Part shown: piece by piece, positions 21,931-47,076 of the stretch
Layout: each line of letters starts with the position of its first letter
Position numbering within the stretch: position 1 is the stretch's first letter
Origin: Candidatus Stoquefichus sp.
GTDB lineage: Bacteria > Bacillota_I > Bacilli_A > Erysipelotrichales > Coprobacillaceae
NCBI GenBank assembly: GCA_021768625.1
Contig: JAETUM010000019.1
Coordinates: 1-47,076 of the forward strand
Direction: 5' to 3'
DNA length: 47,076 bases
Program-made: the position numbers and the translations under genes
Notes under the pieces: model-generated
The model's input: only the letters and a program-made list of their open reading frames with translations
The model's database searches: none
Told to the model about the DNA's origin: nothing

Positions 21931-22036
21931 GTGTTTTGTTAAAATACATAGATATATCATTGAGAAAAGTGAAGATTTATGATATAAAATAAGTGTTGAA
22001 GTCCTTATAAAAATATAAAAAAGAAAGGGTGGCATC

Positions 22037-23727: not shown

Positions 23728-23755
23728 GGTGTTTAAAAGAAAGGACGGGAAATAT

Positions 23756-24244: not shown

Positions 24245-24259
24245 GAGAGGAAAAGGAAA

Positions 24260-24964
24260 ATGGCAAAATTATTGTACGAAGGAAAAGCAAAACAAGTTTA
24301 TGAAACTGATAAGGCAGATGAATATTTAATTCATTATAAAGATGATGCAACTGCTGGTAATGGAGTAAAGCATGATCAATTTGAAGGAAAAGGTGTTTTA
24401 AATAATACCATTTCTTGTATTATCTTTGATATGTTAGAAGAAGCTGGTATTGAAACACATATGATTGAAAAAATTAATGATCGTGATATTAGAGTTAAAA
24501 AGGTAGAAATCTTCCCATTGGAAGTTATTATTAGAAATATTACAACTGGATCATTCTGTAAAAGATTAGGAGCAAAAGAAGGTATTGTTTTAGATGAACC
24601 TATCTTTGAAATGAGTTATAAAAATGATGATTATGGTGATCCATTAATTAATGATGATCATGCTGTTGCATTAAAATTAGCAACTCGTGAAGAATTAGCT
24701 TATATTAGAGAAACAACTTTAAAGATCAATGAATTATTAAAAGCATTTTTCTTAAAATTAAATTTAAAATTAGTAGATTTTAAGATTGAATTTGGAAAAA
24801 CAGAAGATGGAAAAATTTTATTGGCTGATGAAATTTCACCTGATTCATGCCGTTTATGGGATGTAGATACAAATCAAAAATATGATAAAGATGTCTTTAG
24901 ACAAGATATTGGAGATTTAATTGAAACATATAAAGCAGTACTTGCAAGAATGGAAAATAAATAA
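24260..24964 (+). CDS. purC: SAICAR synthetase
   Basis: A 234-residue PurC, normal length, which joins aspartate to CAIR using ATP. Motifs: [14 protein letters not shown] at the N-terminus, [18 protein letters not shown] around residues 88-105, and the C-terminal [21 protein letters not shown] with the [10 protein letters not shown] active-site stretch. GAGAGGAAAAGG precedes ATG 24260. It is separated from purE by 15 bases and from purM by 11, so it is part of the purine operon. Confidence 0.96.
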
Positions 24965-24975
24965 GGAGAATAAAG

Positions 24976-26001
24976 ATGGATTATAAAAAAGCTGGTGTAG
25001 ATATTGAAGCTGGATATAAATCAGTTGAATTAATGAAAAAGCATGTTAAAGAAACAATGAGACCAGAAGTATTAGGTGGTCTTGGAGGATTTGCTGGGGC
25101 ATTTGATTTAAGTGGAATTAAAAATATGGATGAACCAGTGCTTTTATCTGGAACTGATGGTTGTGGAACAAAAGTCAAACTTGCTTTTGTGATGGATAAA
25201 CATGATACAATTGGAATTGATGCAGTTGCAATGTGTGTCAATGATATTGCATGTTCTGGAGGAGAACCACTTTTCTTTTTAGATTATATTGCATGTGGAA
25301 AGAATTATCCTGAAAAAATTGCAACAATTGTGAGTGGGGTTGCTGAAGGATGTAAACAGTCAGAATGTGCTTTAGTTGGTGGAGAAACAGCTGAGCATCC
25401 AGGACTTATGCCTGAAGATGATTATGATCTTGCTGGATTTGCAGTAGGAGTTGTCGATAAAAAAGATATTATTAATGGTGAAGATATTAAACCTGGTGAT
25501 GTTTTGGTAGGAATTGCTTCAAGTGGAGTTCATAGTAATGGATTCTCTCTTGTTAGAAAAGTCTTTGAAATGACAAAAGAGTCATTAGATACATATTATG
25601 ATGAATTAGGGAAAACATTAGGTGAAGCTTTAATTGAGCCTACAAGAATTTATGTTAAAGCATTAAAAAATGTAAAAAATGCTGGTGTAAAAATAAAAGG
25701 ATGCAGTCATATTACTGGTGGTGGATTCTTTGAAAATGTACCAAGAATGTTACCTGATGGAGTAAAAGCTATTATTCAAAAAGATAGTTATAAAGTTCCT
25801 GCAATCTTTGATTTAATTGCGAAAAATGGAAATATTGCTGAAAATATGATGTATAATACATTTAATATGGGATTAGGTATGGTTATTGCTTTAGATTCTC
25901 AAGATGTTGATAAAGCTATGGCAGCAATTGAGGAAGCTGGAGATACTTGTTATGTTGTAGGAAATATCGAAGCAGGAGATAAGGGAGTCGAATTATGCTA
26001 A
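24976..26001 (+). CDS. purM: Phosphoribosylformylglycinamidine cyclo-ligase (AIR synthetase)
   Basis: A 341-residue PurM, normal length, that closes FGAM to AIR with ATP. The N-terminus [20 protein letters not shown] and the motif [15 protein letters not shown] are typical, followed by [25 protein letters not shown] split over the glycine-rich ATP-binding region, GETAEHPG and [20 protein letters not shown] precedes the start. Its end overlaps purN by 7 bases. Confidence 0.97.
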
Positions 26002-26585
26002 AAGTTGCTGTTTTTGTATCTGGAGGAGGAACTGATTTACAATCTATTATTGATGCATGCCAAAATCATGAAATTAATGCAGAGATTAAATTAGTTGTTT
26101 CTTCAAGAAAAAAAGCATATGGCTTAGAGCGTGCAAGACTTGCTGGCATTAAAGCTGAATATATAAGAGATGATGAATTATTAATTCAACGCTTACAAGA
26201 GGAAGAAATTGAATTAATTGTTTTAGCAGGATATCTAGCAATTGTGAGCGATCGATTGATTGAATTATATCAAAATAGAATTATCAATATTCATCCTTCT
26301 TTAATTCCATCTTTTTGTGGACCTGGTTTCTATGGATTACATGTTCATGAAGCAGCATTAAAAAGAGGTGTTAAAGTAAGTGGAGCAACTGTTCATTTTG
26401 TTTCTCCAGTTGTTGATGGCGGACCTATTATTTTACAAGAGGCTGTTGATATTTCTGATTTAAAGACTGCTGAAGATATACAAGCAAGAATTTTAGAGAT
26501 TGAACATCGTATTTTACCAAAAGCAGTTGGTTTGTTTGCTGATAAAAAAATAAAAATTGAAAATGAAAGGGTTGAAATAATATGA
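25995..26585 (+). CDS. purN: Phosphoribosylglycinamide formyltransferase
   Basis: A 196-residue folate-dependent GAR transformylase that uses 10-formyl-THF, the product of the nearby fhs. The catalytic triad context is present: INIHPSLIP (Asn and His) and [16 protein letters not shown] (Asp). The phosphate loop is [12 protein letters not shown], where most PurN proteins have SGxGSNLQ, and the loop after [22 protein letters not shown] carries an unusual insertion relative to the common F-x-G form; both appear to be variants, not damage. It starts inside the purM end and ends inside the purH start (ATGA overlap). Confidence 0.94.
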
Positions 26586-28105
26586 GAAGAGCATTAGTTT
26601 CTGTAACAAATAAAGATGGTGTTGTTGATTTTTGTAATGGTTTAGTGAAATTAGGTTTTGAAATTGTTTCTACTGGTGGAACATTAAATAAATTAAAAGA
26701 AGCTGGTATTCATGCTATTGCTATTGATGATGTGACTGGTTTTCCAGAAATTTTAGATGGAAGAGTGAAAACTTTACATCCAAAGGTTCATGGTGGTTTA
26801 TTGTATAGAAGAGATGTTGAAGAACATGTCAAAACTGTTGAAGAAATGGGTATTCAACCTATTGATTTGGTTTGTGTTAATCTTTATGAATTTGAAAAAG
26901 CATTAAAAGCGGGTAAACCAATGGCAGATATGATTGAGAATATTGATATTGGTGGGCCTTCAATGATTAGAAGTGCTGCTAAAAACTTTAAAGATGTCTT
27001 AATTGTGACTGATCCAAGTGATTACAATAGTGTATTAGAAGCTATTGAAAATAAAACAGATGATTATAATTTCAGATTAAATCTTGCATATAAAGCATTT
27101 AGTACAACAGGAGCATATGATGCTATGATTTCTCGTTATTTTGCTGATGTTGTAGGTGATGATTTCCCAGATACTTTAAATATTTCTTTAAAGAAAGTAG
27201 AACATTTGCGATATGGTGAAAACTCTCAACAAGCTGCTAATAAATATGAAGATGCATATGTTCAACAATCATTATTAGATTATGAACAATTACATGGAAA
27301 AGAAATTTCATTTAATAATGTTAATGATTTATATGGTGCTGTTGCAGTTGTTAGAGAATTTAAAGATCAAATTGTTACTGCTGCTATTAAACATTCTACA
27401 CCTTGTGGAGTGGCTATTGGAAGCACTGGTTATGAATCATATATGAAAGCTTATGAAGCTGATCCTCAATCTATTTTTGGGGGAATCGTTGCTGTAAACT
27501 ATAAAGTGGATAAAGCAACTGCTGAGGAAATGCATAAGATCTTCTTGGAAATTGTTGCTGCACCAGATTATGATGATGATGCTTTAGAAGTTTTAAAGAA
27601 AAAGAAAAACTTACGTATCTTAAAACTAAAGAATTTAGATGCTAGAGATGCAAAATATGATATTAAATATCTTGAAGGAAAAGTTTTGGTTCAAGAATTA
27701 AATACAAAAATGATTGATGAAATGAAAGTTGTTACAAATGCTCAACCTACTCAAGCTCAATTAGATGATATGGAATTTGGTATGAAAGTTGTCAAATATG
27801 TCAAATCAAATGCTATTTGTATTGTTAAAAATGGTGTTACTTTAGCTATTGGTGGTGGACAAACATCACGTGTATGGGCATTAGAAAATGCTATTCATAA
27901 TAACCCTGATAAAGATTTCAAAGATGCTGTTTTAGCTTCAGATGCATTCTTCCCATTTAATGATTGTGCACAAGTTGCTATTGATGCAGGAATTAGCGCA
28001 ATTGTACAACCAGGTGGAAGTATTAGAGATCAAGATTCAATAGATTTATGTAATGAACATGATGTACCTATGGTCTTTAGTGGGTATAGACATTTTAGAC
28101 ATTAG
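26582..28105 (+). CDS. purH: Bifunctional AICAR formyltransferase / IMP cyclohydrolase
   Basis: A 507-residue bifunctional enzyme for the last two steps to IMP. The N-terminal IMP cyclohydrolase (MGS-like) domain shows SVTNKDGVVDFCNGL, STGGTLNKLKEAG and GRVKTLHPKVHGGLLYRRD in parts. The C-terminal formyltransferase domain has VEHLRYGENSQQAA, IKHSTPCGVA (catalytic Lys-His; the common Asn is Thr here), AIGGGQTSRV and SDAFFPFNDC. It uses 10-formyl-THF. It starts by a 4-base overlap with purN and is followed 10 bases later by purD. Confidence 0.97.
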   Translation: MRRALVSVTNKDGVVDFCNGLVKLGFEIVSTGGTLNKLKEAGIHAIAIDDVTGFPEILDGRVKTLHPKVHGGLLYRRDVEEHVKTVEEMGIQPIDLVCVNLYEFEKALKAGKPMADMIENIDIGGPSMIRSAAKNFKDVLIVTDPSDYNSVLEAIENKTDDYNFRLNLAYKAFSTTGAYDAMISRYFADVVGDDFPDTLNISLKKVEHLRYGENSQQAANKYEDAYVQQSLLDYEQLHGKEISFNNVNDLYGAVAVVREFKDQIVTAAIKHSTPCGVAIGSTGYESYMKAYEADPQSIFGGIVAVNYKVDKATAEEMHKIFLEIVAAPDYDDDALEVLKKKKNLRILKLKNLDARDAKYDIKYLEGKVLVQELNTKMIDEMKVVTNAQPTQAQLDDMEFGMKVVKYVKSNAICIVKNGVTLAIGGGQTSRVWALENAIHNNPDKDFKDAVLASDAFFPFNDCAQVAIDAGISAIVQPGGSIRDQDSIDLCNEHDVPMVFSGYRHFRH

Positions 28106-28115
28106 GAGGATAAAA

Positions 28116-29369
28116 GTGAAAGTACTAGTTATTGGTAGTGGTGGTCGTGAACATGCGATTGCTTATGCATTAAATAAGAGTCCTAAAGTTGATGAAATTC
28201 ATGCTATTCCTGGAAACCCTGGAATAGCTGAATTTGGAACATGTCATTTAGGCAGTGTTGAAGATTTAGAAGGTATTTTAAAATTTGTAGAAGATAATCA
28301 TATTGATTTTACTGTTATTGGTCCAGAAGTTCCTTTATGTATGGGGTTAGCTGACTTATTGGAAGAACATGGACATAAGGTTTTTGGTCCTAGAAAATTT
28401 GCTGCAACTTTAGAAGGAAGTAAAGCTTTTTCTAAGGATTTTATGGCAAGACATCATATCCCTACAGCTGCTTATAAAGAAGTGAATTCATATCAAGAAG
28501 CTATTGATGCTTTAAAGAATTTTGATTATCCTGTTGTTGTGAAGGCTGATGGTTTAGCAGCAGGAAAAGGGGTTGTCATTTGTGAAGATCAACAAATGGC
28601 TAAAGATACTCTTAAAGAAATGATGATAGAAGGTAGCTTAGATGGAGCTGGAAGTAAGGTTGTTTTAGAAGAGTTCTTAACTGGTTTTGAATGTTCATTG
28701 CTTTGCTTTACTGATGGAAAAACAATTGTTCCAATGGTTAGTGCAAAGGATCACAAACAAGTATATGATGGAAATAAGGGACCTAATACTGGAGGTATGG
28801 GAACTGTTTCACCAAATCCATTTATGCCTAGCGGTATGGATGAGGTCATGAAAAAAGATATTCTTGATCCATTTATGGCTGGTTTAAAAGCTGATGGTAT
28901 GGATTATAGAGGTGTTGTTTTCATTGGTTTGATGATTGAAAATAATAAAGCAAAAGTTCTTGAATTTAATGTGCGTTTTGGAGACCCTGAAACACAATCT
29001 ATCTTACTTCGTTTAGATAGTGATTTATTTGATATTATGTATGCTGTATCTACAAGTACATTAGATCAAGTAGAAGTAAAATGGAAAGATGAACATGTTG
29101 CATGTTTGGTTCTTGCAAGTGGTGGATATCCTGGAAGTTATGAAAAGGGTAAAGTCATTACTGGATTAAAGGATGTTGATGATGATATTGTTATTTTCCA
29201 TGCTGGAACTGCATTTAAGGATGATCAAGTTGTTACAAGTGGTGGCCGTGTATTAAATATATGTGCATTAGGTTCTTCATTAGAAGAAACAAGAGAAAAA
29301 GTTTATAAGGCTGCTGAGAAGATTGATTTTGATGGTAAATATTATCGAAAAGACATTGGTTTAATGTAA
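28116..29369 (+). CDS. purD: Phosphoribosylamine--glycine ligase (GAR synthetase)
   Basis: A 417-residue ATP-grasp enzyme that joins glycine to phosphoribosylamine. It starts VKVLVIGSGGREHAIAYAL; the ATP-grasp core shows FDYPVVVKADGLAAGKGVVIC, NTGGMGTVSPNP and FNVRFGDPETQ. A frame is open from 28053 inside purH, but AGGAGG (28104-28109) fits the GTG start at 28116, which begins the conserved N-terminus exactly. It lies 10 bases after purH and 11 before purL. Confidence 0.97.
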   Translation: MKVLVIGSGGREHAIAYALNKSPKVDEIHAIPGNPGIAEFGTCHLGSVEDLEGILKFVEDNHIDFTVIGPEVPLCMGLADLLEEHGHKVFGPRKFAATLEGSKAFSKDFMARHHIPTAAYKEVNSYQEAIDALKNFDYPVVVKADGLAAGKGVVICEDQQMAKDTLKEMMIEGSLDGAGSKVVLEEFLTGFECSLLCFTDGKTIVPMVSAKDHKQVYDGNKGPNTGGMGTVSPNPFMPSGMDEVMKKDILDPFMAGLKADGMDYRGVVFIGLMIENNKAKVLEFNVRFGDPETQSILLRLDSDLFDIMYAVSTSTLDQVEVKWKDEHVACLVLASGGYPGSYEKGKVITGLKDVDDDIVIFHAGTAFKDDQVVTSGGRVLNICALGSSLEETREKVYKAAEKIDFDGKYYRKDIGLM

Positions 29370-29380
29370 GAGGTGAAAAG

Positions 29381-32300
29381 ATGAGTCGAGTTTATCGTAT
29401 ATATGTAGAAAAAAGAAAAGATTATGCTGTTGAGGCTGATGAAATCTTGAGTAATTTAAAAACACAATTAAAAATGGATGCATTAGAAGCTTTAAGTGTT
29501 GTGAATCGTTACGATGTTCAAGGTGTATCTGAAGACGTATTGAATCAAGGTATTCCAACAATTTTAAGTGAACCTATGGTGGATGATATTTATAGAGAAG
29601 ATTATCCTGTAAGTGATGAGAAAGTGTTTGCGATTGAGTTCTTACCTGGTCAATATGATCAAAGAGCAGATGCTTGTGAACAATGCTTTCAATTATTAAC
29701 TGGTGAAAAGAATGTTAAAGTCAAATGTGCAAAATTAATTGTTTTAAAAGGTCAATTAAGTGATGAAGATGTGAAACGAGTTCAAAATTATTTAATTAAC
29801 CCAGTAGATCAAAGATTGGCATCTTTAGAAAAAGTTGATGATTTAGCAGATGCTGATGTTCATATTAATCCTGTACCAGTTATTGAAGGATTTATTGATT
29901 TTAGTGATGATGAATTAAAGCAATATATCAATGATAATGGTATGGCAATGAATTATGATGATTTAAAAGTTACACAAGATTATTTCAAAGATGAAGAAAA
30001 AAGAAATCCTACTGAAACAGAATTAAAAGTTTTAGATACATACTGGTCTGATCATTGTCGTCATACAACATTTGCGACAATTATTACAGATTTAGATATT
30101 GAAAGTGGAGCTTTTAAAGAAATATTAGAAAAAGACGTAGAAGATTATAAAACATCAAGACATCTTGTTTATGGTATTGATACAAAACGACCATTAACAT
30201 TAATGGATTTAGCAACTATTTCCATGAAAGAATTAAGAAAGACTGGATATTTAGATGATTTAGAAGTTTCTGAAGAAATCAATGCATGTTCAGTTGAACT
30301 AAAAATACATACAACAGATGGTGATGAAGATTGGTTATTAATGTTTAAAAATGAAACACACAACCATCCAACTGAAATTGAGCCATTTGGTGGGGCTGCA
30401 ACATGTTTAGGAGGAGCTATTCGTGATCCATTGTCTGGTAGAGCTTATGTTTATCAATCAATGCGTATTACAGGAGCAGGAGATCCTAGAAAATCATTAG
30501 ATGAAACTTTAAAAGGAAAACTTCCTCAACGTAAGATTTGTCAAGAAGCTGCCCATGGTTTCTCAAGTTATGGAAATCAAATTGGTTTAACAACAGGTTA
30601 TGTCCATGAAGTTTATGATGATGGATATGTAGCTAAACGTATGGAGGTAGGAGCTGTTGTAGCTGCTGCACCAAAAGAACAGGTTAAACGTTTAGAACCA
30701 TTAAAAGACCATATTGTTTTATTAATTGGTGGAAGAACAGGTAGAGATGGAATTGGTGGAGCAACTGGTTCATCTAAGTCTCATGAATTAAAAACAACAA
30801 CAACTGCTGGTGCTGAAGTTCAAAAAGGTAACCCAGTAGAAGAAAGAAAGATTCAAAGATTATTTAGAAATAAAGCTGTTTCTGAAAAGATTGTACGTTG
30901 TAATGACTTTGGAGCAGGGGGAGTTTGTGTCGCTGTTGGTGAATTAGCTCCTGGATTAAATATTAATTTAGATGCTGTTTTAAAGAAATATGAAGGTTTA
31001 ACTGGAACAGAATTGGCTATTTCTGAATCACAAGAACGTATGGCTATTGTTATTGATGAAAAAGATGAAGCTTTCATTAAACAAGCATGTATTGATGAAA
31101 ACTTAGAAGTTGTAAGAGTTGCGACTGTAACTGATAATAATCGTTTAACTATGCATTATTTAGGTCAAACTGTTGTAGATATTGATAGAGCATTCTTAGA
31201 TAAGAATGGAGCTTCTCGTCATCAAGATATTGAAGTGAAGTTACCTGATTTTACATCTACACCATTTGATGAAGTTCAACAAAGTTCATTTGTTGAAACT
31301 TCAAAAGAAGTTTTAAGTCGTTTATCTGTTTGTGGACAAAAAGGATTGGTTGAAAGATTTGACTCTTCTATTGGAAACGGAACTGTTTTATCACCATTTG
31401 GTGGAAAGACATTAAGAACAGAAACAGAGGGTATGGCCGCTTTAATTCCTGTTTTAGGAAAAGAAACAACAACTTGTTCATTAATGAGTTATGGTTATAG
31501 TCCACTTATTTCTAAATGGTCTCCATATCATGGAGCAATGTATGCTATTGTTGAGTCAGTAGCTAAAATAGTTGCTATGGGTGGAAATTATCATACAATT
31601 CGTTTCTCATTCCAAGAATATTTTGAAAAATTATTAGATGTTCCTAGTAAATGGGGAAAACCATTTGCTGCATTACTTGGAGCTTATAGAGTACAATCTG
31701 AATTAAAACTCCCATCAATTGGTGGTAAGGATTCTATGTCTGGATCATTTGAAGATTTAGATGTCCCTCCAACATTAGTTTCATTTGCTATTACTGGTGC
31801 TGAAGTTGGTGATGTTGTAACACCTGAATTAAAGGCTAAAGGTCATACATTAGTTGAAGTGATGTTACCTAAAGATCAATTCCATGTTTATGATTTTGCT
31901 GCATTAAAGAAACAATATGATGCAGTTATGGAATTAATGAAAGATAATAAGGTTTATAGTGCTTATACGATTAAAGATGGTGGAGTTATTGAAGCTGTTT
32001 ATAAGATGGCATTTGGTAATGCTGTTGGTGTTGAATTGAATAGTGATTTAACTCTTGAATCAATGATTGAAAAGAATTATGGAAATATTATTTTAGAAGT
32101 TGAAAATGATGATATTGTGAAACTAGAAAATACAAGAATTGTTGGTCATACAAATGATACAAATTGTATTTCTTATCATAATGAATCATTGTCATTAGAT
32201 GAAGCTTATGATGTTTATGAGTCAGTTTTAGATGATGTTTATCCTACAAAAGAAAAAGCACCTACTACTGATATGATTGTTAAAGATTGTCATGAAAGAC

Positions 32301-33136
32301 CAACTTTACATGCATCAAAAGTTTATGATGAAGTCAAAGTTGTGATTCCTGTATTCCCAGGAACGAACTGTGAATATGACTCAAAGAGAGCTTTTGAAAA
32401 AGCTGGAGCAACAGTTGAACTTGTATTAATTAGGAATAAAACTGAAGAAGATATTAAGAAATCTGTTGATGAATTAGAAAAAGCAATTAGAAAAGCTCAA
32501 ATTGTCATGTTGCCTGGTGGATTTAGTGCAGGTGATGAACCAGAAGGTTCTGGTAAATTTATTGCAACAGTTTTAAGAAATCCTAAGTTAAAAGACGCTA
32601 TTAGTGATTTATTAGATAATCGTGAAGGATTAATGATTGGTATTTGTAATGGATTCCAAGCATTAGTGAAATTAGGATTGTTACCATATGGAAAGATCAA
32701 AGATATGGATAAAGATGATCCAACTTTAACTTTTAATACAATTGGACGCCATTTATCACAAATGGTAGAAACAAGAATTGCTTCTGTTAAATCTCCATGG
32801 TTGGCTAATGTTCAAGTTGGTGATATTCATACAATTCCAATTAGTCATGGTGAAGGGAGATTTGTAGCTCCAAAAGAAGTTATTGAAAAGTTATTTGAAA
32901 ATGGACAAGTCTTTACACAATATGTGGATGATCAAGGTCAACCAACTATGGAATCTCCATATAATCCAAATGGTTCTATGATGGCTATAGAAGGTATTGT
33001 TTCTTTAGATGGTAGAGTTATTGGAAAAATGGGACATAGTGAACGTCAAGGGGAAAATAGAAATAAGAATATCTATGGAGAAATGGATCAGTTATTATTT
33101 GAAGCTGGCGTAAAATATTTTAAAGGTGGAAAATAG
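29381..33136 (+). CDS. purL: Phosphoribosylformylglycinamidine synthase, large single-chain form
   Basis: A 1251-residue FGAM synthetase that combines in one chain what Bacillus splits into PurS, PurL and PurQ. The N-terminal PurS-like part is followed by a linker with DTYWSDHCRHTTF, two AIRS-type ATP-binding halves (NETHNHPTEIEPFGGAATC..., SIGGKDSMSGSFEDL) and a C-terminal glutamine amidotransferase domain from about residue 980: VFPGTNCEYDS, MLPGGFSAGDE, and the nucleophile cysteine in GICNGFQAL, with SHGEGR for the His. The length is usual for this form. GAGGTG precedes ATG 29381. It ends one base before the purB start. Confidence 0.97.
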   Translation: MSRVYRIYVEKRKDYAVEADEILSNLKTQLKMDALEALSVVNRYDVQGVSEDVLNQGIPTILSEPMVDDIYREDYPVSDEKVFAIEFLPGQYDQRADACEQCFQLLTGEKNVKVKCAKLIVLKGQLSDEDVKRVQNYLINPVDQRLASLEKVDDLADADVHINPVPVIEGFIDFSDDELKQYINDNGMAMNYDDLKVTQDYFKDEEKRNPTETELKVLDTYWSDHCRHTTFATIITDLDIESGAFKEILEKDVEDYKTSRHLVYGIDTKRPLTLMDLATISMKELRKTGYLDDLEVSEEINACSVELKIHTTDGDEDWLLMFKNETHNHPTEIEPFGGAATCLGGAIRDPLSGRAYVYQSMRITGAGDPRKSLDETLKGKLPQRKICQEAAHGFSSYGNQIGLTTGYVHEVYDDGYVAKRMEVGAVVAAAPKEQVKRLEPLKDHIVLLIGGRTGRDGIGGATGSSKSHELKTTTTAGAEVQKGNPVEERKIQRLFRNKAVSEKIVRCNDFGAGGVCVAVGELAPGLNINLDAVLKKYEGLTGTELAISESQERMAIVIDEKDEAFIKQACIDENLEVVRVATVTDNNRLTMHYLGQTVVDIDRAFLDKNGASRHQDIEVKLPDFTSTPFDEVQQSSFVETSKEVLSRLSVCGQKGLVERFDSSIGNGTVLSPFGGKTLRTETEGMAALIPVLGKETTTCSLMSYGYSPLISKWSPYHGAMYAIVESVAKIVAMGGNYHTIRFSFQEYFEKLLDVPSKWGKPFAALLGAYRVQSELKLPSIGGKDSMSGSFEDLDVPPTLVSFAITGAEVGDVVTPELKAKGHTLVEVMLPKDQFHVYDFAALKKQYDAVMELMKDNKVYSAYTIKDGGVIEAVYKMAFGNAVGVELNSDLTLESMIEKNYGNIILEVENDDIVKLENTRIVGHTNDTNCISYHNESLSLDEAYDVYESVLDDVYPTKEKAPTTDMIVKDCHERPTLHASKVYDEVKVVIPVFPGTNCEYDSKRAFEKAGATVELVLIRNKTEEDIKKSVDELEKAIRKAQIVMLPGGFSAGDEPEGSGKFIATVLRNPKLKDAISDLLDNREGLMIGICNGFQALVKLGLLPYGKIKDMDKDDPTLTFNTIGRHLSQMVETRIASVKSPWLANVQVGDIHTIPISHGEGRFVAPKEVIEKLFENGQVFTQYVDDQGQPTMESPYNPNGSMMAIEGIVSLDGRVIGKMGHSERQGENRNKNIYGEMDQLLFEAGVKYFKGGK

Positions 33137-33137
33137 A

Positions 33138-34520
33138 ATGGAAAATCAAGAGTTTGAAAGTTTAACACTTTGTCCATTAGATGGACGTTATTCTGGTATT
33201 AAAGATGCATTAGGAGAATATTTTTCTGAATATGCATTGGTTAAATATAGAGTTTTTGTTGAAATTCAATGGTTAAAATTTTTAATTGAAAATATTGATA
33301 GTGATATTTTAGCAAAGTTTAATAAAGATGATATGAATAAAATTGAATCTATTTCTAAAGAATTTAATTATGATTCATTTAAAGCTATTAAAGATATTGA
33401 AGCAATAACACGTCATGATGTTAAAGCAGTAGAATATTTTATTGGAAATGCTCTTAAAACAATGGGATATGACTACTTAATTAGCTTTGTTCATATTGGA
33501 TGTACTTCAGAAGATATTAACAATACATCATATGCATGTATGCTTAAATATGGACTTCAAGATGTATGGGTGCCTAAAGCTAAAGAATTTGCTGATATTA
33601 TCAACAAATGGGCACTAGAACATAAAGATGATGCAATGTTAGCTCATACTCATGGACAACCTGCTACTCCAACAACAATTGGTAAAGAATTTAAAGTTTA
33701 TGCATATCGTTTCATGTCAAGTATTGAAAATATTGAAAATATTCAAATTAAAGCTAAATTTAATGGAGCAACTGGAAACTATAGTGCTATTTTAACTGCT
33801 TTTCCTAATGTGGATTGGCAAGTTATGGCTAAAAAGTTTGTAGAAGAATATTTAGGATTAACATTTAATCCATTAACAACACAAATAGAAAGTCATGATT
33901 ATACTTGTCATATTTTAGATGGTATTCGTCATTTCAATAATGTATTGGTTGATTTTGATGTTGATATGTGGCTATATATTTCTATGGAATACTTTAAACA
34001 AATTCCTGTTAAAGGAGAAGTTGGAAGTAGTACAATGCCTCATAAAGTGAATCCAATTCGTTTTGAAAACAGTGAAGCAAATGTTGATATGTCTAATCAC
34101 ATTTGTGTGGCATTATCTAATAAACTTCCTAAATCACGTATGCAAAGAGATTTATCTGATTCTTCTTCACAAAGAAATTTAGGACTTGCATTTGGATATT
34201 CATTACAAGCTATTAATGAAACTATGAATGGTTTAGCAAAATGTGTTGTGAATAAAGATAAATTAGCAGCTGATTTAAATGAAAAATGGGAAGTTCTTGC
34301 AGAACCAATTCAAACAATGTTAAGAAAATATGGTGTACCAGATGCTTATGATACATTAAAAGCTCTAACAAGAGGAAAGAATATATCTAAAGAAGATATT
34401 CTTAAATTTGCAGAGAGTTTAGAAATGTTATCTGATGAAGATCGTGCAACATTAGTCAATATGACTCCAGCATCTTATATCGGTTTAGCTGATAAGCTTG
34501 CAGATTTAAAATTAAAATAA
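33138..34520 (+). CDS. purB: Adenylosuccinate lyase
   Basis: A 460-residue fumarase-superfamily lyase that releases fumarate from SAICAR and from adenylosuccinate. It is the long, E. coli-like type: SLTLCPLDGRYSG near the N-terminus, the catalytic His region AHTHGQPATPTTIGKE, and the signature GSSTMPHKVNPIRFENSEAN with its flexible serine loop. GTG 33126 is in frame, but AAAGGTGG (33122-33129) is the ribosome binding site for ATG 33138, one base after the purL stop. A strong terminator follows, so purB closes the cluster. purF and purK are missing from the window. Confidence 0.95.
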   Translation: MENQEFESLTLCPLDGRYSGIKDALGEYFSEYALVKYRVFVEIQWLKFLIENIDSDILAKFNKDDMNKIESISKEFNYDSFKAIKDIEAITRHDVKAVEYFIGNALKTMGYDYLISFVHIGCTSEDINNTSYACMLKYGLQDVWVPKAKEFADIINKWALEHKDDAMLAHTHGQPATPTTIGKEFKVYAYRFMSSIENIENIQIKAKFNGATGNYSAILTAFPNVDWQVMAKKFVEEYLGLTFNPLTTQIESHDYTCHILDGIRHFNNVLVDFDVDMWLYISMEYFKQIPVKGEVGSSTMPHKVNPIRFENSEANVDMSNHICVALSNKLPKSRMQRDLSDSSSQRNLGLAFGYSLQAINETMNGLAKCVVNKDKLAADLNEKWEVLAEPIQTMLRKYGVPDAYDTLKALTRGKNISKEDILKFAESLEMLSDEDRATLVNMTPASYIGLADKLADLKLK

Positions 34521-35535: not shown

Positions 35536-37890
35536 ATGGATAATTTACAACAAACACAAAGAATTCATATCTTAAAAGAAAAAATGTTAAATAGTCCTAG
35601 ATATGCTTCTATTGAACAAGCAAGGATTATTACACATGTTTATCAACAAAATGAAAATTTATCTATTCCTAAAAAGAGAGCTTTATCATTAAAGACGGCA
35701 TTAGAAGAATTAGAGATTTCTGTTGAAAAAGAAGAATTGATTGTTGGAAATCGTACAAAAGGTGTTCGTTATGGAGTTGTATTTCCTGAAAGTGGATGTT
35801 CATGGGTTAATAAAGAATTTGAAACCTTACCAACAAGACCACAAGATCAATTTTTAGTTAAAGAAGAAGATATTGAAGAATTTAGAAAAGAGATTTATCC
35901 TTATTGGCAAGGAAAGTCTATGGAAGATATCATTAAGAAGAATTATGGGCAAGAAATAAATGCAATGGCTAAAGTTGTAAAGATCAATCAAAAGGATCAT
36001 GCTCAAGGACATATTTGTCCTGATTCTGCATTATGGTTAAAGTTAGGTCCATCTGGATTAATTGAAAAAGCAAAGAGAAAACTTGAGACTTGTCCAAAGG
36101 ATCAAAGAGAATTCTATGAGTGTGTTATTTTGGTGTTAGAGGGAACCCAAAATTTTATGAAAAGATATTCTTATCATATTATGAATATGATTGATAATGT
36201 TGAAAAAGAGTATCAAAGGGGTTTAAAAGAGGTTGCTGATAATTGTATGAATTTATCACAAAGACCACCACAGTCATTTTATGAGGCAGTGCAATCTCTA
36301 TGGTTCTTATTTGTGATATTGCATATGGAATCAAATGCATCATCATTTTCACCTGGAAGAATGGATCAATATTTATATCCATATTATCAAAAGGATATTG
36401 CAAGTGGAGTATTAACAAAACAAAAAGCATTAGAAATTTTGGAATGTTTATGGTTAAAGTTTAATCAAATTGTTTATCTTAGAAATCAAAATAGTGCTAA
36501 GTATTTTGCAGGATTTCCTATAGGGTTCAATATTGCTATTGGAGGTATCGATGAAAATGGAGAAGATATTTATAATGATTTATCACTTCTTTGTTTAAAG
36601 GCACAATATGATCTAGGATTACCACAACCTAATTTATCAGTAAGATTAAATAAAAATTCTTCTCATGAATTGATGCAAGAAGCGATTAAGGTTGTTGCAA
36701 AAGGAAGTGGAATGCCACAATTCTTTAATGATGAAGCAATTGTAAATACTATGATCGAAGATTTAGGAATTGAAGAAAAAGATGCTAGAAATTATGCTAT
36801 TGTAGGTTGTGTAGAACTTACAACACATGGTAATAATTTGGGATGGTCAGATGCTGCTATGTTTAATCTTAACAAAGCATTAGAATTAACTTTGAATAAT
36901 GGGAAATGTTTATTGACAAATCAACAAATTGGATTAGGTTTGGGAAGTCTTGAAACATATGAAACATTTAGCGATTTGGAAAATGCATTTCAAAAACAAG
37001 TTGATTATTTTATTGATGAAATGATGAAAGCAGAAGTTGTTGTAGAAAAGGCACATCAAGATTGCCTGCCAACTGCATTTTTATCTACAGTTATTGATGA
37101 TTGTATAGAAAAAGGATTGGATGTTACAAAAGGTGGAGCTAAATACAATCTATCTGGTATTCAGATGATACAAGTGGCTAATTTAGCAGATTCACTGGCT
37201 GCTATTAAACAACTTGTCTATGATGAAAACATGATTTCAAAACATGAATTATTAGAAGCATTAAAGAATGATTTTAAAGGATATGAGATTATCCAAACAA
37301 TGTTATTGAACAAGGTTCCTAAATATGGAAATGATGTAAAATGGGTAGATGATCTAGGAGCGAAATGGGCAGGATATTTCAGAGAGAAAATGAAGGATTA
37401 TACAAATTATCGAGGAGGTCCGTATCATACAGGAATGTATACAGTTTCTGCACATGTACCAATGGGAGAAAATGTTGGGGCATCACCTGATGGTAGAAAT
37501 GCTTTAACTCCACTTGCTGATGGTGGGATGTCACCTGTTTATGGAAGAGATATGGCAGGACCAACGGCAGTTTTAAAATCAGTTTCTCGTATGAAGGATT
37601 CTTTTACAACAAATGGTGGCTTACTAAATATGAAATTTTTACCTGAATTCTTTGAAACAAAAACAGGAATGATGAAATTTGAAAATTTCTTAAGAGCATT
37701 TGTAGATTTAGAAATTCCACATATTCAATTTAATGTTGTAAGACGTGAAGATTTATTAGATGCAAAGATCCATCCAGAAAATCATAAATCACTAACAATT
37801 CGTGTAGCAGGTTATACAGCTTATTTTGTTGAATTAGCTGGAAAATTACAAGACGAAATCATTGAGAGAACAGCTTATGAAGACATCTAA
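35536..37890 (+). CDS. Glycyl radical enzyme (PFL-like lyase/dehydratase, E. coli YbiW/PflD type)
   Basis: A 784-residue glycyl radical enzyme. The C-terminal radical loop is RVAGYTAYF with Gly759; the active-site cysteine is Cys425 in GCVELTT, with a single Cys and the following Glu427. True pyruvate formate-lyases have two adjacent Cys, so this belongs with the dehydratase/lyase branch (glycerol dehydratase, CutC, YbiW/PflD). The N-terminal PFL domain (about 1-630) is complete. It is followed by an overlapping activase gene and an FSA-type aldolase, the same trio as E. coli ybiWY-fsaA and pflDC-fsaB. From memory, such enzymes have been reported to act on 1,5-anhydroglucitol-6-phosphate; that assignment here is inference from context. 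It is oxygen-sensitive and cytoplasmic. Confidence 0.88.
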   Translation: MDNLQQTQRIHILKEKMLNSPRYASIEQARIITHVYQQNENLSIPKKRALSLKTALEELEISVEKEELIVGNRTKGVRYGVVFPESGCSWVNKEFETLPTRPQDQFLVKEEDIEEFRKEIYPYWQGKSMEDIIKKNYGQEINAMAKVVKINQKDHAQGHICPDSALWLKLGPSGLIEKAKRKLETCPKDQREFYECVILVLEGTQNFMKRYSYHIMNMIDNVEKEYQRGLKEVADNCMNLSQRPPQSFYEAVQSLWFLFVILHMESNASSFSPGRMDQYLYPYYQKDIASGVLTKQKALEILECLWLKFNQIVYLRNQNSAKYFAGFPIGFNIAIGGIDENGEDIYNDLSLLCLKAQYDLGLPQPNLSVRLNKNSSHELMQEAIKVVAKGSGMPQFFNDEAIVNTMIEDLGIEEKDARNYAIVGCVELTTHGNNLGWSDAAMFNLNKALELTLNNGKCLLTNQQIGLGLGSLETYETFSDLENAFQKQVDYFIDEMMKAEVVVEKAHQDCLPTAFLSTVIDDCIEKGLDVTKGGAKYNLSGIQMIQVANLADSLAAIKQLVYDENMISKHELLEALKNDFKGYEIIQTMLLNKVPKYGNDVKWVDDLGAKWAGYFREKMKDYTNYRGGPYHTGMYTVSAHVPMGENVGASPDGRNALTPLADGGMSPVYGRDMAGPTAVLKSVSRMKDSFTTNGGLLNMKFLPEFFETKTGMMKFENFLRAFVDLEIPHIQFNVVRREDLLDAKIHPENHKSLTIRVAGYTAYFVELAGKLQDEIIERTAYEDI

Positions 37891-38794
37891 GGCACTTGTA
37901 TTTGATATTAAGAGATTTGCAGTACATGATGGGCAAGGATTAAGGACAACAGTATTTTTCAAAGGATGTCCACTCAGATGTAAATGGTGTCAAAATCCAG
38001 AAGGATTATCAGCTAAGAGGAGACCAATTTATTTTGAAAAGAGTTGTATTCATTGCCGAAGATGTGAACAATCTTCGTATGAGAATCAAATGATATATGA
38101 AAATAATCGACCTTATTTTCATCTTGATTATCAAGGAGATTTTGACAATCTTGTGAAATGTTGTCCTAGTACAGCCATTCGTTATGATAGTGAAGAATAT
38201 GATATTGAAGAACTTATTGAAAAAATAAAAGAAGATAAAATCTTTTTTAGAGATAATGGTGGAGTGACTTTTTCTGGTGGAGAACCACTTATGCAAGGAG
38301 AGTTTCTTGTTGAAATATTAAAGAGATGTAAAGAGGAAGGAATTCATACTGCTATTGAGACAACAATGTTTGCTTCATTAGAATTGATTAAAAAGATTCT
38401 ACCATATTTAGATTTAATATATATTGATTTAAAAGTTTTTGATGAAAAGAAACATGAAGAATTCACAAATATATCTTCCAAAATGATAAAGGAACATATA
38501 AAATATATCTTAGAGAGTGTATATAAAGATAAGGTTATAATCAGAACGCCATTGATTCCTTCAATGACTGCAACTGATGATAATATAACAAGTATTGCTA
38601 AGTTTCTAGTGAGTATTGATTCTGAAGTTAAGTATGAGTTATTAAACTATAATCCTTTAGCTTCATCAAAATACGAATTAGTAGACTTGGAATATGGAGT
38701 GGATAAACAATATAAAATGTTTACACAAAAACAAATGCAACATTTTTATGATATTGTTTATTCAACAGGCTTAAAAAATTTAATCATAGAATAA
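37877..38794 (+). CDS. Glycyl radical enzyme activase (radical SAM)
   Basis: A 305-residue activating enzyme that uses SAM and a [4Fe-4S] cluster to abstract hydrogen from Gly759 of the upstream enzyme. The radical SAM motif is Cys31-x3-Cys35-x2-Cys38 (GCPLRCKWC), followed by a ferredoxin-like insert with Cys57, Cys60, Cys63, Cys95 and Cys96, then GGVTFSGGEPLMQ and IDLKVFD. Most activases with an insert have eight cysteines (two clusters); here the fourth ligand of the first set and the CxxCxxC of the second are missing, so at most one extra cluster fits. TTG 37862 is in frame, but ATG 37877, inside the end of the upstream gene (14-base overlap), is preferred. Confidence 0.88.
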   Translation: MKTSKALVFDIKRFAVHDGQGLRTTVFFKGCPLRCKWCQNPEGLSAKRRPIYFEKSCIHCRRCEQSSYENQMIYENNRPYFHLDYQGDFDNLVKCCPSTAIRYDSEEYDIEELIEKIKEDKIFFRDNGGVTFSGGEPLMQGEFLVEILKRCKEEGIHTAIETTMFASLELIKKILPYLDLIYIDLKVFDEKKHEEFTNISSKMIKEHIKYILESVYKDKVIIRTPLIPSMTATDDNITSIAKFLVSIDSEVKYELLNYNPLASSKYELVDLEYGVDKQYKMFTQKQMQHFYDIVYSTGLKNLIIE

Positions 38795-43126: not shown

Positions 43127-43487
43127 TTTATTTGCGTTTACATTAAAAAATTTTATAAATATCAACTATGGTTATAGAAACCGTAGTTGATATTTTTATA
43201 TGCCACAGTTTGTTATCTATATTTATTTTCAAATTTTGAAAATAAATATAGAGCATTTTTGTTGCGAACTCATGATGACTTGTATATCATATAAAAGCAT
43301 GATAAACATAAAATTGCTTTATAGAATATTCAATATAATGGAAATGATTTGAATAATAAAATGTGATAAATAGATTATATTATTTTTTGAGGGATTTGAT
43401 AATAAAAAGTCTACCTATTGACAATAAATAATATATTATTCAATGAGTTTATTGTTAGAAATTTTTGTGCTATTAGGGGGTAAATTT
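43127..43487 (+). other. Non-coding region between ROK kinase and surface protein genes
   Basis: It begins with a terminator for the ROK gene (43157-43195). An AT-only 14-base stem follows, CTATATTTATTTTC (43217-43230) / GAAAATAAATATAG (43238-43251), of unknown role. After about 160 bases without structure I can see, a consensus TTGACA stands at 43418-43423, next to a perfect palindrome AATAATATATTATT (43427-43440) nested in a larger stem TGACAATAAA (43419-43428) / TTTATTGTTA (43447-43456). No open frame is convincing. The last part is probably the regulated leader of the surface protein gene. Confidence 0.55.
43157..43195 (+). terminator. Terminator of the ROK kinase gene
   Basis: A 17-base stem: AAATATCAACTATGGTT (43157-43173) with AACCGTAGTTGATATTT (43179-43195), one G-T pair and a 5-base loop, followed by T-rich sequence. 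Confidence 0.8.
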
Positions 43488-45527
43488 ATGAAAATAATAA
43501 AGCGTTATTTTTATAAAATAACACAAATAATGATTGTTGTCATGATACTATTTTCAACAATTTATTTTTCTGCATTAAATCAAATCAATGCTGATGATTC
43601 ATATAGTCAAATGGAAAATATGAAATTTTCTGATTACAATGGATATACAGTAGAATATTTATTAAAAAATTATAATGTTGTTTCTTTTCAAGATACAACA
43701 ATGAATACACATTGCATGGGTGGAATTCTTATACATGGTGATTTGAAGGGAAACGCTTCTGGATATGCTGATATAGGTACATTAGAAGCACCATCATATG
43801 TGAGTGGGAGCTTAAAAGAGTTTTCAGGATGGTATAATTCTAGAAATGGTAATGTAAAAACACCTTTATATATAGGTTCTGTAAATAAAATAAGAATGGA
43901 GTATGGAAATACATTTATTAATGATAAGTATAGTGGACAAAGTCCAGCATATCATTCTGATGATTTTGTTGATTGGGACAGATTAAGTAGAATTATCAAA
44001 GAGACAAGTGTAAATTTAAAGAAAAAGTCAACAAAAACTATTGATATTACAAAAAATTATGAGATGGGAACACCTTTAGAAATAGAAGCGGGTTCAAATG
44101 TTACACTTCGTATGAATGGACACTATGTCCATATACGATTGATTGGCGAAATCAGCAAAAATAAAACGATTATTAATTTAGAAGGTAATGAAGTGTCAAT
44201 TCCAAGAATTGTGAATGAGTTATCAAATGCTGAGAATGGAAAAGGAACTTCTATTGTTTGGAATTGCCCAAATGTAAAATCTGTAAATATTTTAAGTGCA
44301 TTATCACCAGAAGTTGGGCATGTTATTGCTCTTGATGCCAATTTAAAAGTAGAGTCTTGTAATTATAATGGGTGTCTTATTAGTCAAAAAGCAACAATAG
44401 ATGGAGAAGGCCATTTTCATCCATATGATGGTGATGCATTGTTAACAGAGAAAACTGTGTCTAAAACTATAACAAAAATTTGGGATGATAATAACAATCA
44501 AGATGGATTAAGACCATCTCATATTATTGTTCAATTAAAAGCTAATGGAGAAGATTATGATCTTCCTGTAAAAATAACTGCAGATGAAAAGGGAAATTGG
44601 ACTTATACATGGAAAAATCTTCCTGATAATGCTGTTTATACAGTTGAGGAACTAAATATAGATGAAAACTATGAAGTTTCTTATGAGGGAGATACAATTA
44701 TTAATACTTATAAGTTAAAGACAAGAACAATATCAGTCGAAAAAGTATGGAATGATAATGATGATCAAAGTAGAATCAGACCAGATCATGTTATCATAAG
44801 ATTATATGCTAATGGAAAACAGACGGGTCAATATGTGGAGTTAAATGAAGATAATCAATGGAAAGCAGAGTTTAGTAATCTACCAGTTAATCAAAATGGA
44901 AAAAAGATTGAATATACTGTTATGGAAGATCATGTAGATAGATATATAACTGAAATCACAGAATCAAAGGATGGCTTTGTTATAACAAATACTATGAGAT
45001 TGACACAGTTTGTTATTTATAAAGTTAATCAAGATGGTATTCCTTTATATGGAGCATCATTTGAATTAGATAAAGTTATTGATGGCGAAGAGATTTTTAT
45101 AGATGAACAACAAGGTGGACCAACATTTGTATTTGATCATTTAGATGATGGTATATATAGAATTTATGAAACAGTTGTCCCAGATGGTTATATTGGAATG
45201 GAAGATTATTTTGAAATAGAAATAAAAGATGGATTGATTTATTATGATAATCAATTAGAAACAGAAGGCACTTTTGTTGTTTATAATACACGAAATGATA
45301 TGGATACAGATGTTTTAGGTGATGAAATTATTAAACCACAAGAAAAAATAGACTCAACTGTATTAGGTCATGAAATTGATTCTTATAGACCTTCTGTTTT
45401 GGGAAATACAATTCAAACAAACAAGAAAGTGAAAACGTCAGATAGTCAAGAATTAAGTGGTTATATTATTCTTACTATGGGTTCAGCAATTTGTTTTTGT
45501 TTCTTGAAAAAGAAAGAGTTTAATTAA
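43488..45527 (+). CDS. Cell-surface adhesin: choice-of-anchor A + Cna_B + SpaA domains, sortase signal
   Basis: A 679-residue exported protein. Signal peptide (residues about 1-38), a choice-of-anchor A-type domain (about 45-310), Cna_B domain 1 (from about 325, KIWDDNNNQDGLRP, Glu in YTVEE), Cna_B domain 2 (from about 415, VEKVWNDNDDQSRIRP, Glu in YTVME), and a SpaA-like domain (from about 507, YKVNQDGIPLYGASFELDK, Glu in YETVVPDGY). The Lys and Glu placements suit internal isopeptide bonds. A linker has three VLG repeats, then VKTSD, a hydrophobic helix and KKKE, a sorting signal variant. GGGGGT (43476-43481) fixes ATG 43488; the frame from 43443 would spoil the signal peptide. It is probably anchored to peptidoglycan by a sortase not in the window. 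Confidence 0.88.
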   Translation: MKIIKRYFYKITQIMIVVMILFSTIYFSALNQINADDSYSQMENMKFSDYNGYTVEYLLKNYNVVSFQDTTMNTHCMGGILIHGDLKGNASGYADIGTLEAPSYVSGSLKEFSGWYNSRNGNVKTPLYIGSVNKIRMEYGNTFINDKYSGQSPAYHSDDFVDWDRLSRIIKETSVNLKKKSTKTIDITKNYEMGTPLEIEAGSNVTLRMNGHYVHIRLIGEISKNKTIINLEGNEVSIPRIVNELSNAENGKGTSIVWNCPNVKSVNILSALSPEVGHVIALDANLKVESCNYNGCLISQKATIDGEGHFHPYDGDALLTEKTVSKTITKIWDDNNNQDGLRPSHIIVQLKANGEDYDLPVKITADEKGNWTYTWKNLPDNAVYTVEELNIDENYEVSYEGDTIINTYKLKTRTISVEKVWNDNDDQSRIRPDHVIIRLYANGKQTGQYVELNEDNQWKAEFSNLPVNQNGKKIEYTVMEDHVDRYITEITESKDGFVITNTMRLTQFVIYKVNQDGIPLYGASFELDKVIDGEEIFIDEQQGGPTFVFDHLDDGIYRIYETVVPDGYIGMEDYFEIEIKDGLIYYDNQLETEGTFVVYNTRNDMDTDVLGDEIIKPQEKIDSTVLGHEIDSYRPSVLGNTIQTNKKVKTSDSQELSGYIILTMGSAICFCFLKKKEFN

Positions 45528-45533
45528 AAATGT

Positions 45534-45562
45534 TTCACATTTTTATGTAAATGTGTTATTCT
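45534..45562 (+). promoter_or_regulatory. Promoter of the queuosine-salvage operon
   Basis: TTCACA (45534-45539), 17-base spacer, TATTCT (45557-45562), about 20 bases before the preQ1 aptamer. Confidence 0.6.
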
Positions 45563-45581
45563 ATTGATGTCATAAATTGAC

Positions 45582-45622
45582 AACTGGTTCGAGAGCCAAA
45601 CCCAGTATAAAAAACTAAGGAT
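45582..45622 (+). ncRNA. preQ1-I riboswitch aptamer
   Basis: ACTGG (45583-45587) pairs with CCAGT (45602-45606), enclosing TTCGAGAGCCAAAC, and is followed by the hallmark A-rich tail TATAAAAAACTAAGGAT (45606-45622), whose CTAAGG end pairs with the loop to form the H-type pseudoknot. Length and sequence agree with preQ1-I. It binds 7-aminomethyl-7-deazaguanine and controls queuosine-precursor genes; the transporter subunit and radical SAM gene follow. Confidence 0.93.
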
Positions 45623-45631
45623 ATAAAAAGG

Positions 45632-45655
45632 AAAGATGGCTATGTCATCTTTTTT
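45632..45655 (+). terminator. Riboswitch expression-platform terminator
   Basis: AAAGATG (45632-45638) / CATCTTT (45646-45652), then T-rich. It lies directly after the aptamer and 50 bases before the first gene, so preQ1 binding is expected to favour termination (an OFF switch). Confidence 0.75.
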
Positions 45656-45703
45656 ATTTATATCTGGCTTCTAACTGTTTTTTAGAAGAAAGGAAAATTG
45701 AAT

Positions 45704-46249
45704 ATGAAAAAAACAACAAAAAGACAAATGTTAATTGCAATAGGAATTGCTCTCAATGTAATAGGAGCTTTCATAGCTATGACTTTTTCTATACCATTTT
45801 ATATGGATTCTATTGGAACTATTCTTATTGCAGGGTTATTAGGCCCAAAGTATGCAATGTTAACAGGGGTATTGGGAAGTTTATCGAGTGGAGTTTTATT
45901 TGATGTGTACTCGTTTTACTATGCTCCAGTTCAACTACTTACAGGATTCTTTGCAGGAATTCTTTATCACACATCTTGGTTAAAAGGATGGAAAACGCTT
46001 ATAGGAAGTATTCTTATAGGTGTTCCTACATCAATAGCTAGTGCTATTATTACAGCATGTTTATTTCAAGGGATAACCTCAGGTTCAAGTAGTGCAATTG
46101 TTGTTATATTGCATCATTTTGGAATGAACTTGGTTTTAAGTATTTTTATTGTTCAGGTATTTACAGATTATATGGACAAACTTCTTGCAGTTATTTTTAC
46201 GAAGATGGTTATTCAAAGAGGAAAATTAGAGGAAAGATGGAGAATTTAA
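45704..46249 (+). CDS. qrtT: ECF transporter S component for a queuosine precursor (QrtT-like)
   Basis: A 181-residue membrane protein with about six helices, of the ECF S-component fold: KKTTKRQMLIAIGIALNVIGA at the start, then FSIPFYMDSIGTILIAGLLGPKYAMLTGVLG in the parts IPFYMDSIGTILIAGLL and GPKYAMLTGVLGSLSSG. It binds a small substrate and pairs with a shared ECF energizing module encoded elsewhere. The preQ1-I riboswitch directly upstream and the radical SAM gene downstream identify the substrate group as preQ0, preQ1, queuine or queuosine. TTG 45698 is in frame, but AAAGGA fits ATG 45704. Confidence 0.8.
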   Translation: MKKTTKRQMLIAIGIALNVIGAFIAMTFSIPFYMDSIGTILIAGLLGPKYAMLTGVLGSLSSGVLFDVYSFYYAPVQLLTGFFAGILYHTSWLKGWKTLIGSILIGVPTSIASAIITACLFQGITSGSSSAIVVILHHFGMNLVLSIFIVQVFTDYMDKLLAVIFTKMVIQRGKLEERWRI

Positions 46250-46938
46250 TGGAAAGATATAGTCAAATAAAGAATAAAATAAAAAGAGAAATTGTTCTTT
46301 TAAAATCAGCACCATGTATTTGGTCAAAATGTACTTTTTGTGATTATATTGAGGACAATTCTACATGCAAAGAAGAAATTATTCATATTAATAATGAAGT
46401 TTTAGAAAAAGTGACAGGAGAGTATGGTATTTTAGAGGTTATTGATTCTGCAAGTATTTTTGAATTACCTCAAGAAACTTTAAAAAAAATAAAAACAATT
46501 ATTGAAGAAAAGAAGATTCATACATTATTTGTAGAAAGCCATTGGCTATATCATAGCCGTATTCATGAAATAAGAGACTATTTTGGTATTAAAGTTATTG
46601 TTAAAATTGGTGTAGAAACATTTGATGATGAATTTAGAAATGGTGTTCTCAATAAAAATGCTCATTTTTCTTCGGTAAAAGAATTAAAGAAATATTTTGA
46701 TTCACCTTGTTTAATGGTTGGAATACAAGGACAAACAAAAGAAATGATTGATAATGATATGAATATTTTACAAACATATTTTGAATATGGAACAATTAGT
46801 ATTTATCGTAATAATTCAACAATAATCAAAAGGGATAATCAATTGGTTTGTTGGTTTTTAGATAAATATAGTTATCTTATAGATGACCCAAGATATGATT
46901 TTTTATATGACCCTACTGATTTTGGGGTTGGAGATTAG
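46249..46938 (+). CDS. Radical SAM protein of queuosine salvage (QueL-like)
   Basis: A 229-residue radical SAM protein. The cluster motif is Cys23-x4-Cys28-x2-Cys31 (PCIWSKCTFC), a spacing of four rather than the usual three, followed by a barrel with IDSASIFELP, FVESHW and KIGVETFDDEFRNGVLNK in parts, and MVGIQGQTKEM. Operon context (preQ1 riboswitch, QrtT-like transporter) fits the queuosine lyase QueL described in gut clostridia, which releases the deazaguanine base from imported queuosine derivatives. I have not seen residues that distinguish it from other radical SAM proteins. ATG 46237 is in frame, but ATG 46249 overlaps the upstream stop (TAATG) with a well-spaced GGAG, so it is preferred. 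Confidence 0.65.
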   Translation: MERYSQIKNKIKREIVLLKSAPCIWSKCTFCDYIEDNSTCKEEIIHINNEVLEKVTGEYGILEVIDSASIFELPQETLKKIKTIIEEKKIHTLFVESHWLYHSRIHEIRDYFGIKVIVKIGVETFDDEFRNGVLNKNAHFSSVKELKKYFDSPCLMVGIQGQTKEMIDNDMNILQTYFEYGTISIYRNNSTIIKRDNQLVCWFLDKYSYLIDDPRYDFLYDPTDFGVGD

Positions 46939-46942
46939 AAGA

Positions 46943-46967
46943 GGTTGAAGGAATTCAACTTTTTTTA
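46943..46967 (+). terminator. Terminator of the queuosine-salvage operon
   Basis: GTTGAA (46944-46949), loop GGAA, TTCAAC (46954-46959), then a T run. It begins a few bases after the stop codon. Confidence 0.8.
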
Positions 46968-47028
46968 ATTTGTTGAAGAAAAATAGAAATAAAAAATGAA
47001 TATATAAGAAGAAGGTATTATTCATGAG

Positions 47029-47057
47029 TTGTATAGATATTTGCTTTGTGCTATACT
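47029..47057 (+). promoter_or_regulatory. Candidate promoter for a gene beyond the window
   Basis: TTGTAT (47029-47034), 17-base spacer, TATACT (47052-47057) preceded by TGC (extended -10). The window ends before any start codon. Confidence 0.5.
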
Positions 47058-47076
47058 ATGTGTGATGATAACCTCT

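Follow-up and report, generated by a model that had tools for sequence, protein, structure and literature searches.

A preQ1-I riboswitch-preceded qrtT–queL operon of Candidatus Stoquefichus and its probable role in indirect queuine salvage

Genes and leader of the locus

The window, that is, the whole stretch of 47,076 nucleotides of Candidatus Stoquefichus DNA that was analyzed, contains two overlapping genes, qrtT and queL, behind a preQ1-I riboswitch leader (Table 1). In the ORF list, qrtT appears as 45698–46249 from a TTG, and we adopted the in-frame ATG at 45704. The ORF listed for queL spans 46237–46938 and gives 233 aa if the ATG at 46237 is used; the final base of the qrtT stop codon also serves as the A of the ATG at 46249 (TAATG). 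The aligned QueL homologues have an ATG at the position that matches 46249, the row starts having been chosen to match. From either start, queL overlaps qrtT, so the overlap of a QrtT-like ECF subunit by a radical SAM gene, as described in the initial annotation, holds.

Table 1. Features of the qrtT–queL locus (positions are those of the window)
Feature	Description	Position	Strand	Evidence
preQ1-I riboswitch aptamer	RF00522	45578..45624	+	cmscan, 43.9 bits (gathering score 39)
Intrinsic terminator hairpin	Part of the riboswitch	45629..45655	+	12 pairs, loop of 3, T-rich tail
qrtT	Predicted ECF transporter substrate-binding (S) component, 181 aa	45704..46249	+	PF12822-like, NF045596 match, locus relatives
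queL	Radical SAM protein, predicted queuine lyase, 229 aa	46249..46938	+	6p78_A “Queuine lyase,” E 8.6e-91
Possible terminator after queL		46944..46966	+	6-pair stem, loop of 4, run of 7 T; by eye

The aptamer matched its model with E 9.5e-6 over the whole window and with a score exceeding the gathering cut-off; with the hairpin that follows it, this bears out the earlier reading of a preQ1-I aptamer and terminator ahead of a qrtT-like gene. The hairpin was the only terminator called within 45400–47076 (shuffle average, 0.2), and folding extended its stem to approximately 45619–45665, which overlaps the 3′ end of the aptamer. The fold of the leader (45570–45670) had a z value of −3.38, and 2 of 200 shuffled sequences were equally or more stable. 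The terminator is present, and a search of the leader for an antiterminator helix returned weak candidates, the best of which had 6 pairs. By analogy with the preQ1-I class, the leader probably switches in a ligand-dependent manner, with preQ1 presumably turning expression OFF. The operon was earlier taken to begin at 45534, which precedes the aptamer and coincides with a weak promoter-like match (9 of 12); the promoter scan behind this match found 9 promoters, as against 10.8 in shuffled sequences. The possible terminator after queL was not called by the terminator scan, which requires at least 3 G–C pairs.

Several other features of the window were recorded. Directly upstream of the riboswitch, 43443–45527 encodes a protein in which Cna_B and SpaA domains are accompanied by a putative ice-binding-like adhesive domain, and its C-terminal hydrophobic stretch and lysine-rich tail, seen by eye, make it resemble a surface protein. 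A second riboswitch, of the ZMP-ZTP type, lies ahead of a formate-tetrahydrofolate-ligase-like ORF and purine biosynthesis ORFs (21831–34520; names by eye), an ordinary-looking arrangement. At 35536–38794, a glycyl radical enzyme (PFL-like and Gly_radical) adjoins a radical SAM ORF that by eye is activating-enzyme-like. A cluster that by eye resembles one for corrinoid-dependent methyl transfer (851–6383) stands behind a GntR-type regulator, and its members were named by eye as a B12-binding protein, MtaA- or UroD-like proteins, and a ferredoxin-like activator.

Identity of the radical SAM protein

QueL removes the cyclopentenediol side chain from queuine, yielding preQ1. When the radical SAM protein of the window was compared with the PDB, one match was obtained at E ≤ 0.001, namely 6p78_A, which covered residues 4–233 of the 233 in the listed ORF; the alignment ran end to end and left no extra domain. 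Locus L014 of G042, a genome belonging to this family, encodes a protein equal to the 6P78 chain in 229 of 229 residues, and the QueL of the window is 62% identical to this protein.

The cysteines of the window protein are arranged as C-x4-C-x2-C (PCIWSKCTFCDY). For the QueL alignment, 13 of the 20 QueL genomes or loci (16 of the family and 4 others) were picked to span the range; the rows of L003 and L023 read alike, which leaves 12 distinct rows. C23, C28, and C31, with the x4 and x2 spacing, were invariant in all 13 rows, and row L017 has an extra cysteine beside the first of them. A motif scan with an added proline before the first cysteine matched 19 of the 20; the remaining one, L017, has the cysteines without the proline. 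Because the Cx4Cx2C arrangement is kept across the aligned QueLs, it is the family's own spacing. The spacing given in the initial annotation is thus real, but its description as “non-canonical” was misleading, and the notion that it signals new chemistry was rejected, the spacing being normal for the family and the same in 6P78.

RaSEA, a radical SAM protein of archaeosine formation, acts on a 7-deazaguanine substrate. The RaSEA model, TIGR01210, was the best NCBIfam match of the window QueL (55.1 bits), so a protein of another radical SAM subfamily, such as RaSEA or HemW, had to be weighed. However, the curated cut-off of TIGR01210 is 212, far above this score, and other QueLs fall in the same range against the model (63.3 and 49.8), among them the protein that equals the 6P78 chain. 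In the family search, the weak matches in G013, G037, G038, and G040 (E 6.9e-6 to 4.7e-4; 26–36% identical and mostly partial) were set apart as other radical SAM proteins; the one that was tested, L018 in G013, is HemW, and for G037, G038, and G040 the only grounds were that their matches are weak and partial. With the 6P78 match of the window protein added, membership in another subfamily is exceedingly improbable. Judged from its sequence, the radical SAM protein is QueL, a clear relative of an enzyme with a solved structure. The comparison with characterized QueL that had been proposed for it therefore ended with a close homologue of 6P78 and not with an unrelated subfamily.

Queuosine genes in the genome, the family, and beyond

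The assembly to which the window belongs comprises 138 contigs and is listed as 100% complete, with a contamination of 0.83%. A profile search of this genome (G000) located tgt on contig C108, contiguous with queA and queH, so a lack of tgt, named earlier as a possible objection, does not count against the operon. No match at E 0.001 was obtained in this genome for QueC (PF06508), QueF (PF14489), QueD (PF01242), QPTR (PF02592), or the nucleoside hydrolase family PF01156, and the same searches were positive in 12, 8, 9, 9, and 5 of 14 control genomes, respectively. Qng1 (PF10343) also gave no match in this genome at E 0.001, in a search that matched 0 of the 14 control genomes and hence had no positive control. 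De novo synthesis of preQ1 was rejected, given that queC, queF, and queD were all without a match, and a QueK elsewhere in the genome was rejected, given that neither PF01156 nor PF10343 matched. The operon was correctly described at the outset as lacking a nucleoside hydrolase, and the PF01156 type was undetected in the whole genome too. In summary, queL is linked to a queuosine-precursor transporter in a genome that has tgt, queA, and queH and is without queC and queF matches; this gene content makes it look as though the organism is unable to make preQ1 and lives by salvage.

We surveyed 43 genomes of the family, of which 20 had QueL matches and 16 were accepted as QueL genomes, at 45–100% identity. 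A tgt match (PF01702) was found in all 43 genomes and queH in 42. Full-length queC (> 180 bits) and queF occurred in the same 11 genomes; other matches to the queC model were not counted (≤ 30.5 bits, mostly short pieces of the model, several of them above the model cut-off). One of these 11 genomes, G035, has QueL, so the presence of QueL does not always go with an inability to make preQ1. A QrtT relative adjoins queL in 13 of the 16 QueL genomes, QueT (PF06177) accompanies it in two (G042, which encodes the 6P78 protein, and G035), and QPTR lies downstream of it in one (G026). The locus of this last genome (L017, 1465–2912) contains a divergent QueL of 45% identity and then QPTR (PF02592), with no ECF S component; no preQ1 aptamer was detected at this locus.

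A preQ1 aptamer above the cut-off lies ≤ 1.5 kb from queL in 11 of the 16 QueL genomes. The aptamer of G006 is under the cut-off (34.1 bits), that of G032 lies approximately 1 kb upstream of qrtT, past a partly masked stretch, and no preQ1 aptamer match was found in three genomes (G018, G024, and G026). Second aptamers were found in G005, G028, G032, and G033, each upstream of a QueT gene. In G032 (L038, 1137–3452), queL is split over two frames and was treated as a disrupted copy, and the salvage operon is seemingly decaying. A QueK-like gene in the riboswitch–qrtT gap of this genome was considered and rejected; the visible part of the gap resembles, by eye, the end of a transposase, and part of the gap is masked.

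PF01156 was distributed differently in QueL genomes of the family and in QueL loci outside it. It was found in 0 of the 16 QueL genomes, including the one that encodes the 6P78 protein, and in the only two genomes of the family with PF01156, G037 and G039, no QueL was accepted. PF10343 was likewise found in 0 of the 16, in the search for which 0 of the 14 control genomes served as a positive control. The scan for QueL loci outside the family, which reaches close relatives only, returned four loci, L023–L026. L023 comes from a MAG titled Erysipelotrichaceae, its QueL equals that of G009, and it probably belongs to the family of the window; by eye, no nucleoside hydrolase ORF lies upstream. In L024 (Terrisporobacter), L025 (a Lachnospiraceae MAG), and L026 (Faecalimicrobium), a PF01156 gene lies immediately upstream of qrtT–queL (3/3), and this order is the C. 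difficile arrangement named in the part of PMC11477304 used here. L025 has a preQ1 aptamer above the cut-off, and L024 and L026 have none above it. Because 3 of the 16 family genomes have no aptamer match at all and these two loci have none above the cut-off, not all QueL genes are under riboswitch control.

Transport, the proposed pathway, and known systems

The role of QrtT as an ECF S component is assigned from the context of the locus and is thus a predicted one. QrtT scored 30.5 bits against PF12822, marginally below the cut-off of 30.7; among its relatives, the S components of L024 (40.3) and L026 (34.8) passed, that of L013 (25.6) was under, and that of L025 had no PF12822 match. Its best NCBIfam match, and the only S-component model of that collection that it matched, was the CD3073 model NF045596, at 77.9 bits with a cut-off of 180. 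No mention of CD3073 by name was found in the literature searched, and comparison of QrtT with the PDB gave chance-like matches only (best E 0.1). Because QrtT falls under the PF12822 cut-off and well under that of CD3073, its substrate is unsettled by sequence.

Two kinds of QrtT are described for C. difficile in the portions of the papers used here: one that transports preQ1 only (PMC11130926) and one, belonging to the operon, whose substrates are preQ1, Q, and queuine (PMC11477304). Based on the first kind, the operon of the window might mainly salvage preQ1, with QrtT importing preQ1 and QueL being minor or auxiliary, and the match to CD3073 as the sole S-component model, as well as the QueT-type transporter that accompanies QueL instead in the 6P78-encoding genome and in G035, could be read in the same way. 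However, the S components of L024 and L026 match the CD3073 model too (91.3 and 89.8 bits), so the model fails to separate the two QrtT types. Moreover, among the loci retrieved from outside the family, QrtT finds its closest relatives in the S components of the hydrolase–qrtT–queL loci L024–L026 (34.5–58.9% identity), the second C. difficile transporter comes from such an operon, and QueL would be needless if preQ1 alone were imported. We therefore regard salvage of mainly preQ1 as very unlikely, and the QrtT of the window is presumably specific for queuine and possibly for preQ1. Its partners would be encoded elsewhere: an EcfT gene was found on contig C76 of the same genome by profile search (154 bits), where it is adjoined by two ABC ATPase ORFs and a truA-like ORF (locus L035; neighbors named by eye), and a second PF02361 match lies on contig C89. 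The genome thus has a shared ECF module (A, A′, and T) away from qrtT.

In the portions of the literature used here, preQ1 is regenerated from queuine by the queuine lyase QueL, and queuine is set free by the hydrolases QueK and Qng1 (PMC11130926); the same QueL/QueK scheme is given in PMC11570991, in which Q is salvaged by E. coli when queK and queL of C. difficile are expressed in it. According to the same portions of these two papers and of PMC11477304, QueK or Qng1 splits the nucleoside or nucleotide and QueL acts on the free base. The statement in the initial annotation that base release would rest on the radical SAM protein alone is therefore wrong, since QueL acts after that step, turning free queuine into preQ1, and an organism that imports queuine itself has no need of a base-release step. 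A test of queuine release from queuosine by QueL would be expected to be negative. Without QueK, no known enzyme could use an imported queuosine nucleoside, and free queuine is presumably the main substrate used.

An alternative, partly compatible with salvage of queuine, is that QueK is replaced by the QueL found in this lineage or by an unrelated nucleosidase of unknown type, either of which would also handle queuosine or its phosphates. The lack of PF01156 and PF10343 matches in the genome of the window and in all 16 family QueL genomes would fit this, as would the PF01156 gene upstream in 3/3 outside loci. On the other hand, the genome encoding the 6P78 protein, which is named a queuine lyase, is also without PF01156 and PF10343 matches, free queuine from the surroundings would suffice, and the window QueL aligns to 6P78 over its full length and has no further domain. 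We consider this replacement of QueK unlikely. The queK-less state of the window is not unusual, and the absence of queK is no mark of oddity because the 6P78-encoding genome is also without the known hydrolase types. That the QueL operons of the family operate entirely without QueK, the bacteria depending on free queuine from the diet, the host, or neighbors or else cleaving queuosine with a nucleosidase of a family not yet known, is advanced as a minor possibility. No report of QueL operons without queK was met in a limited literature search (titles and abstract openings).

Based on these results, the locus is very probably a preQ1-repressed operon for indirect queuine salvage, in which import by QrtT is followed by cleavage to preQ1 by QueL. 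QrtT, together with the genome's shared EcfA–EcfA–EcfT module, would import queuine and possibly preQ1; QueL would strip the side chain from queuine; the canonical bacterial Tgt would insert the resulting preQ1 into tRNA position 34; and QueA and QueH would rebuild queuosine on the tRNA. When abundant, preQ1 would bind the aptamer, and the terminator hairpin would halt transcription of qrtT–queL. The QueL reaction and QrtT transport are taken from portions of papers in which they were tested on C. difficile proteins. The initial description of a preQ1-switched operon for the salvage of a queuosine precursor was right, with tgt present and homology to 6P78, and the idea of a radical SAM enzyme freeing the base is corrected here. 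The pathway is already known, and the window adds a member to it, with no new mechanism indicated. It is a clear-cut case of indirect queuine salvage, and the survey (0 of 16 QueL genomes) suggests that the pathway commonly occurs without QueK in this family, in which queuine may be the shared nutrient.

Among known systems, RaSEA (TIGR01210), the archaeosine radical SAM protein, has a weak similarity to the window QueL, far under the RaSEA cut-off. The 6P78 QueL shows homology from end to end, 62% identity, and the same Cx4Cx2C; the genome that encodes it resembles that of the window in having a preQ1 aptamer upstream and no PF01156 match, but there the S component that goes with QueL is a QueT (PF06177), whereas in the window it is QrtT (PF12822-like). 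In the C. difficile operon, as given in the part of PMC11477304 used here, a preQ1-I riboswitch precedes queK, qrtT, and queL. The window is without queK, and its genome is without a PF01156 match, but the riboswitch followed by qrtT and then queL is the same in both. The operon of the window is thus the known queK–qrtT–queL operon without its first gene.
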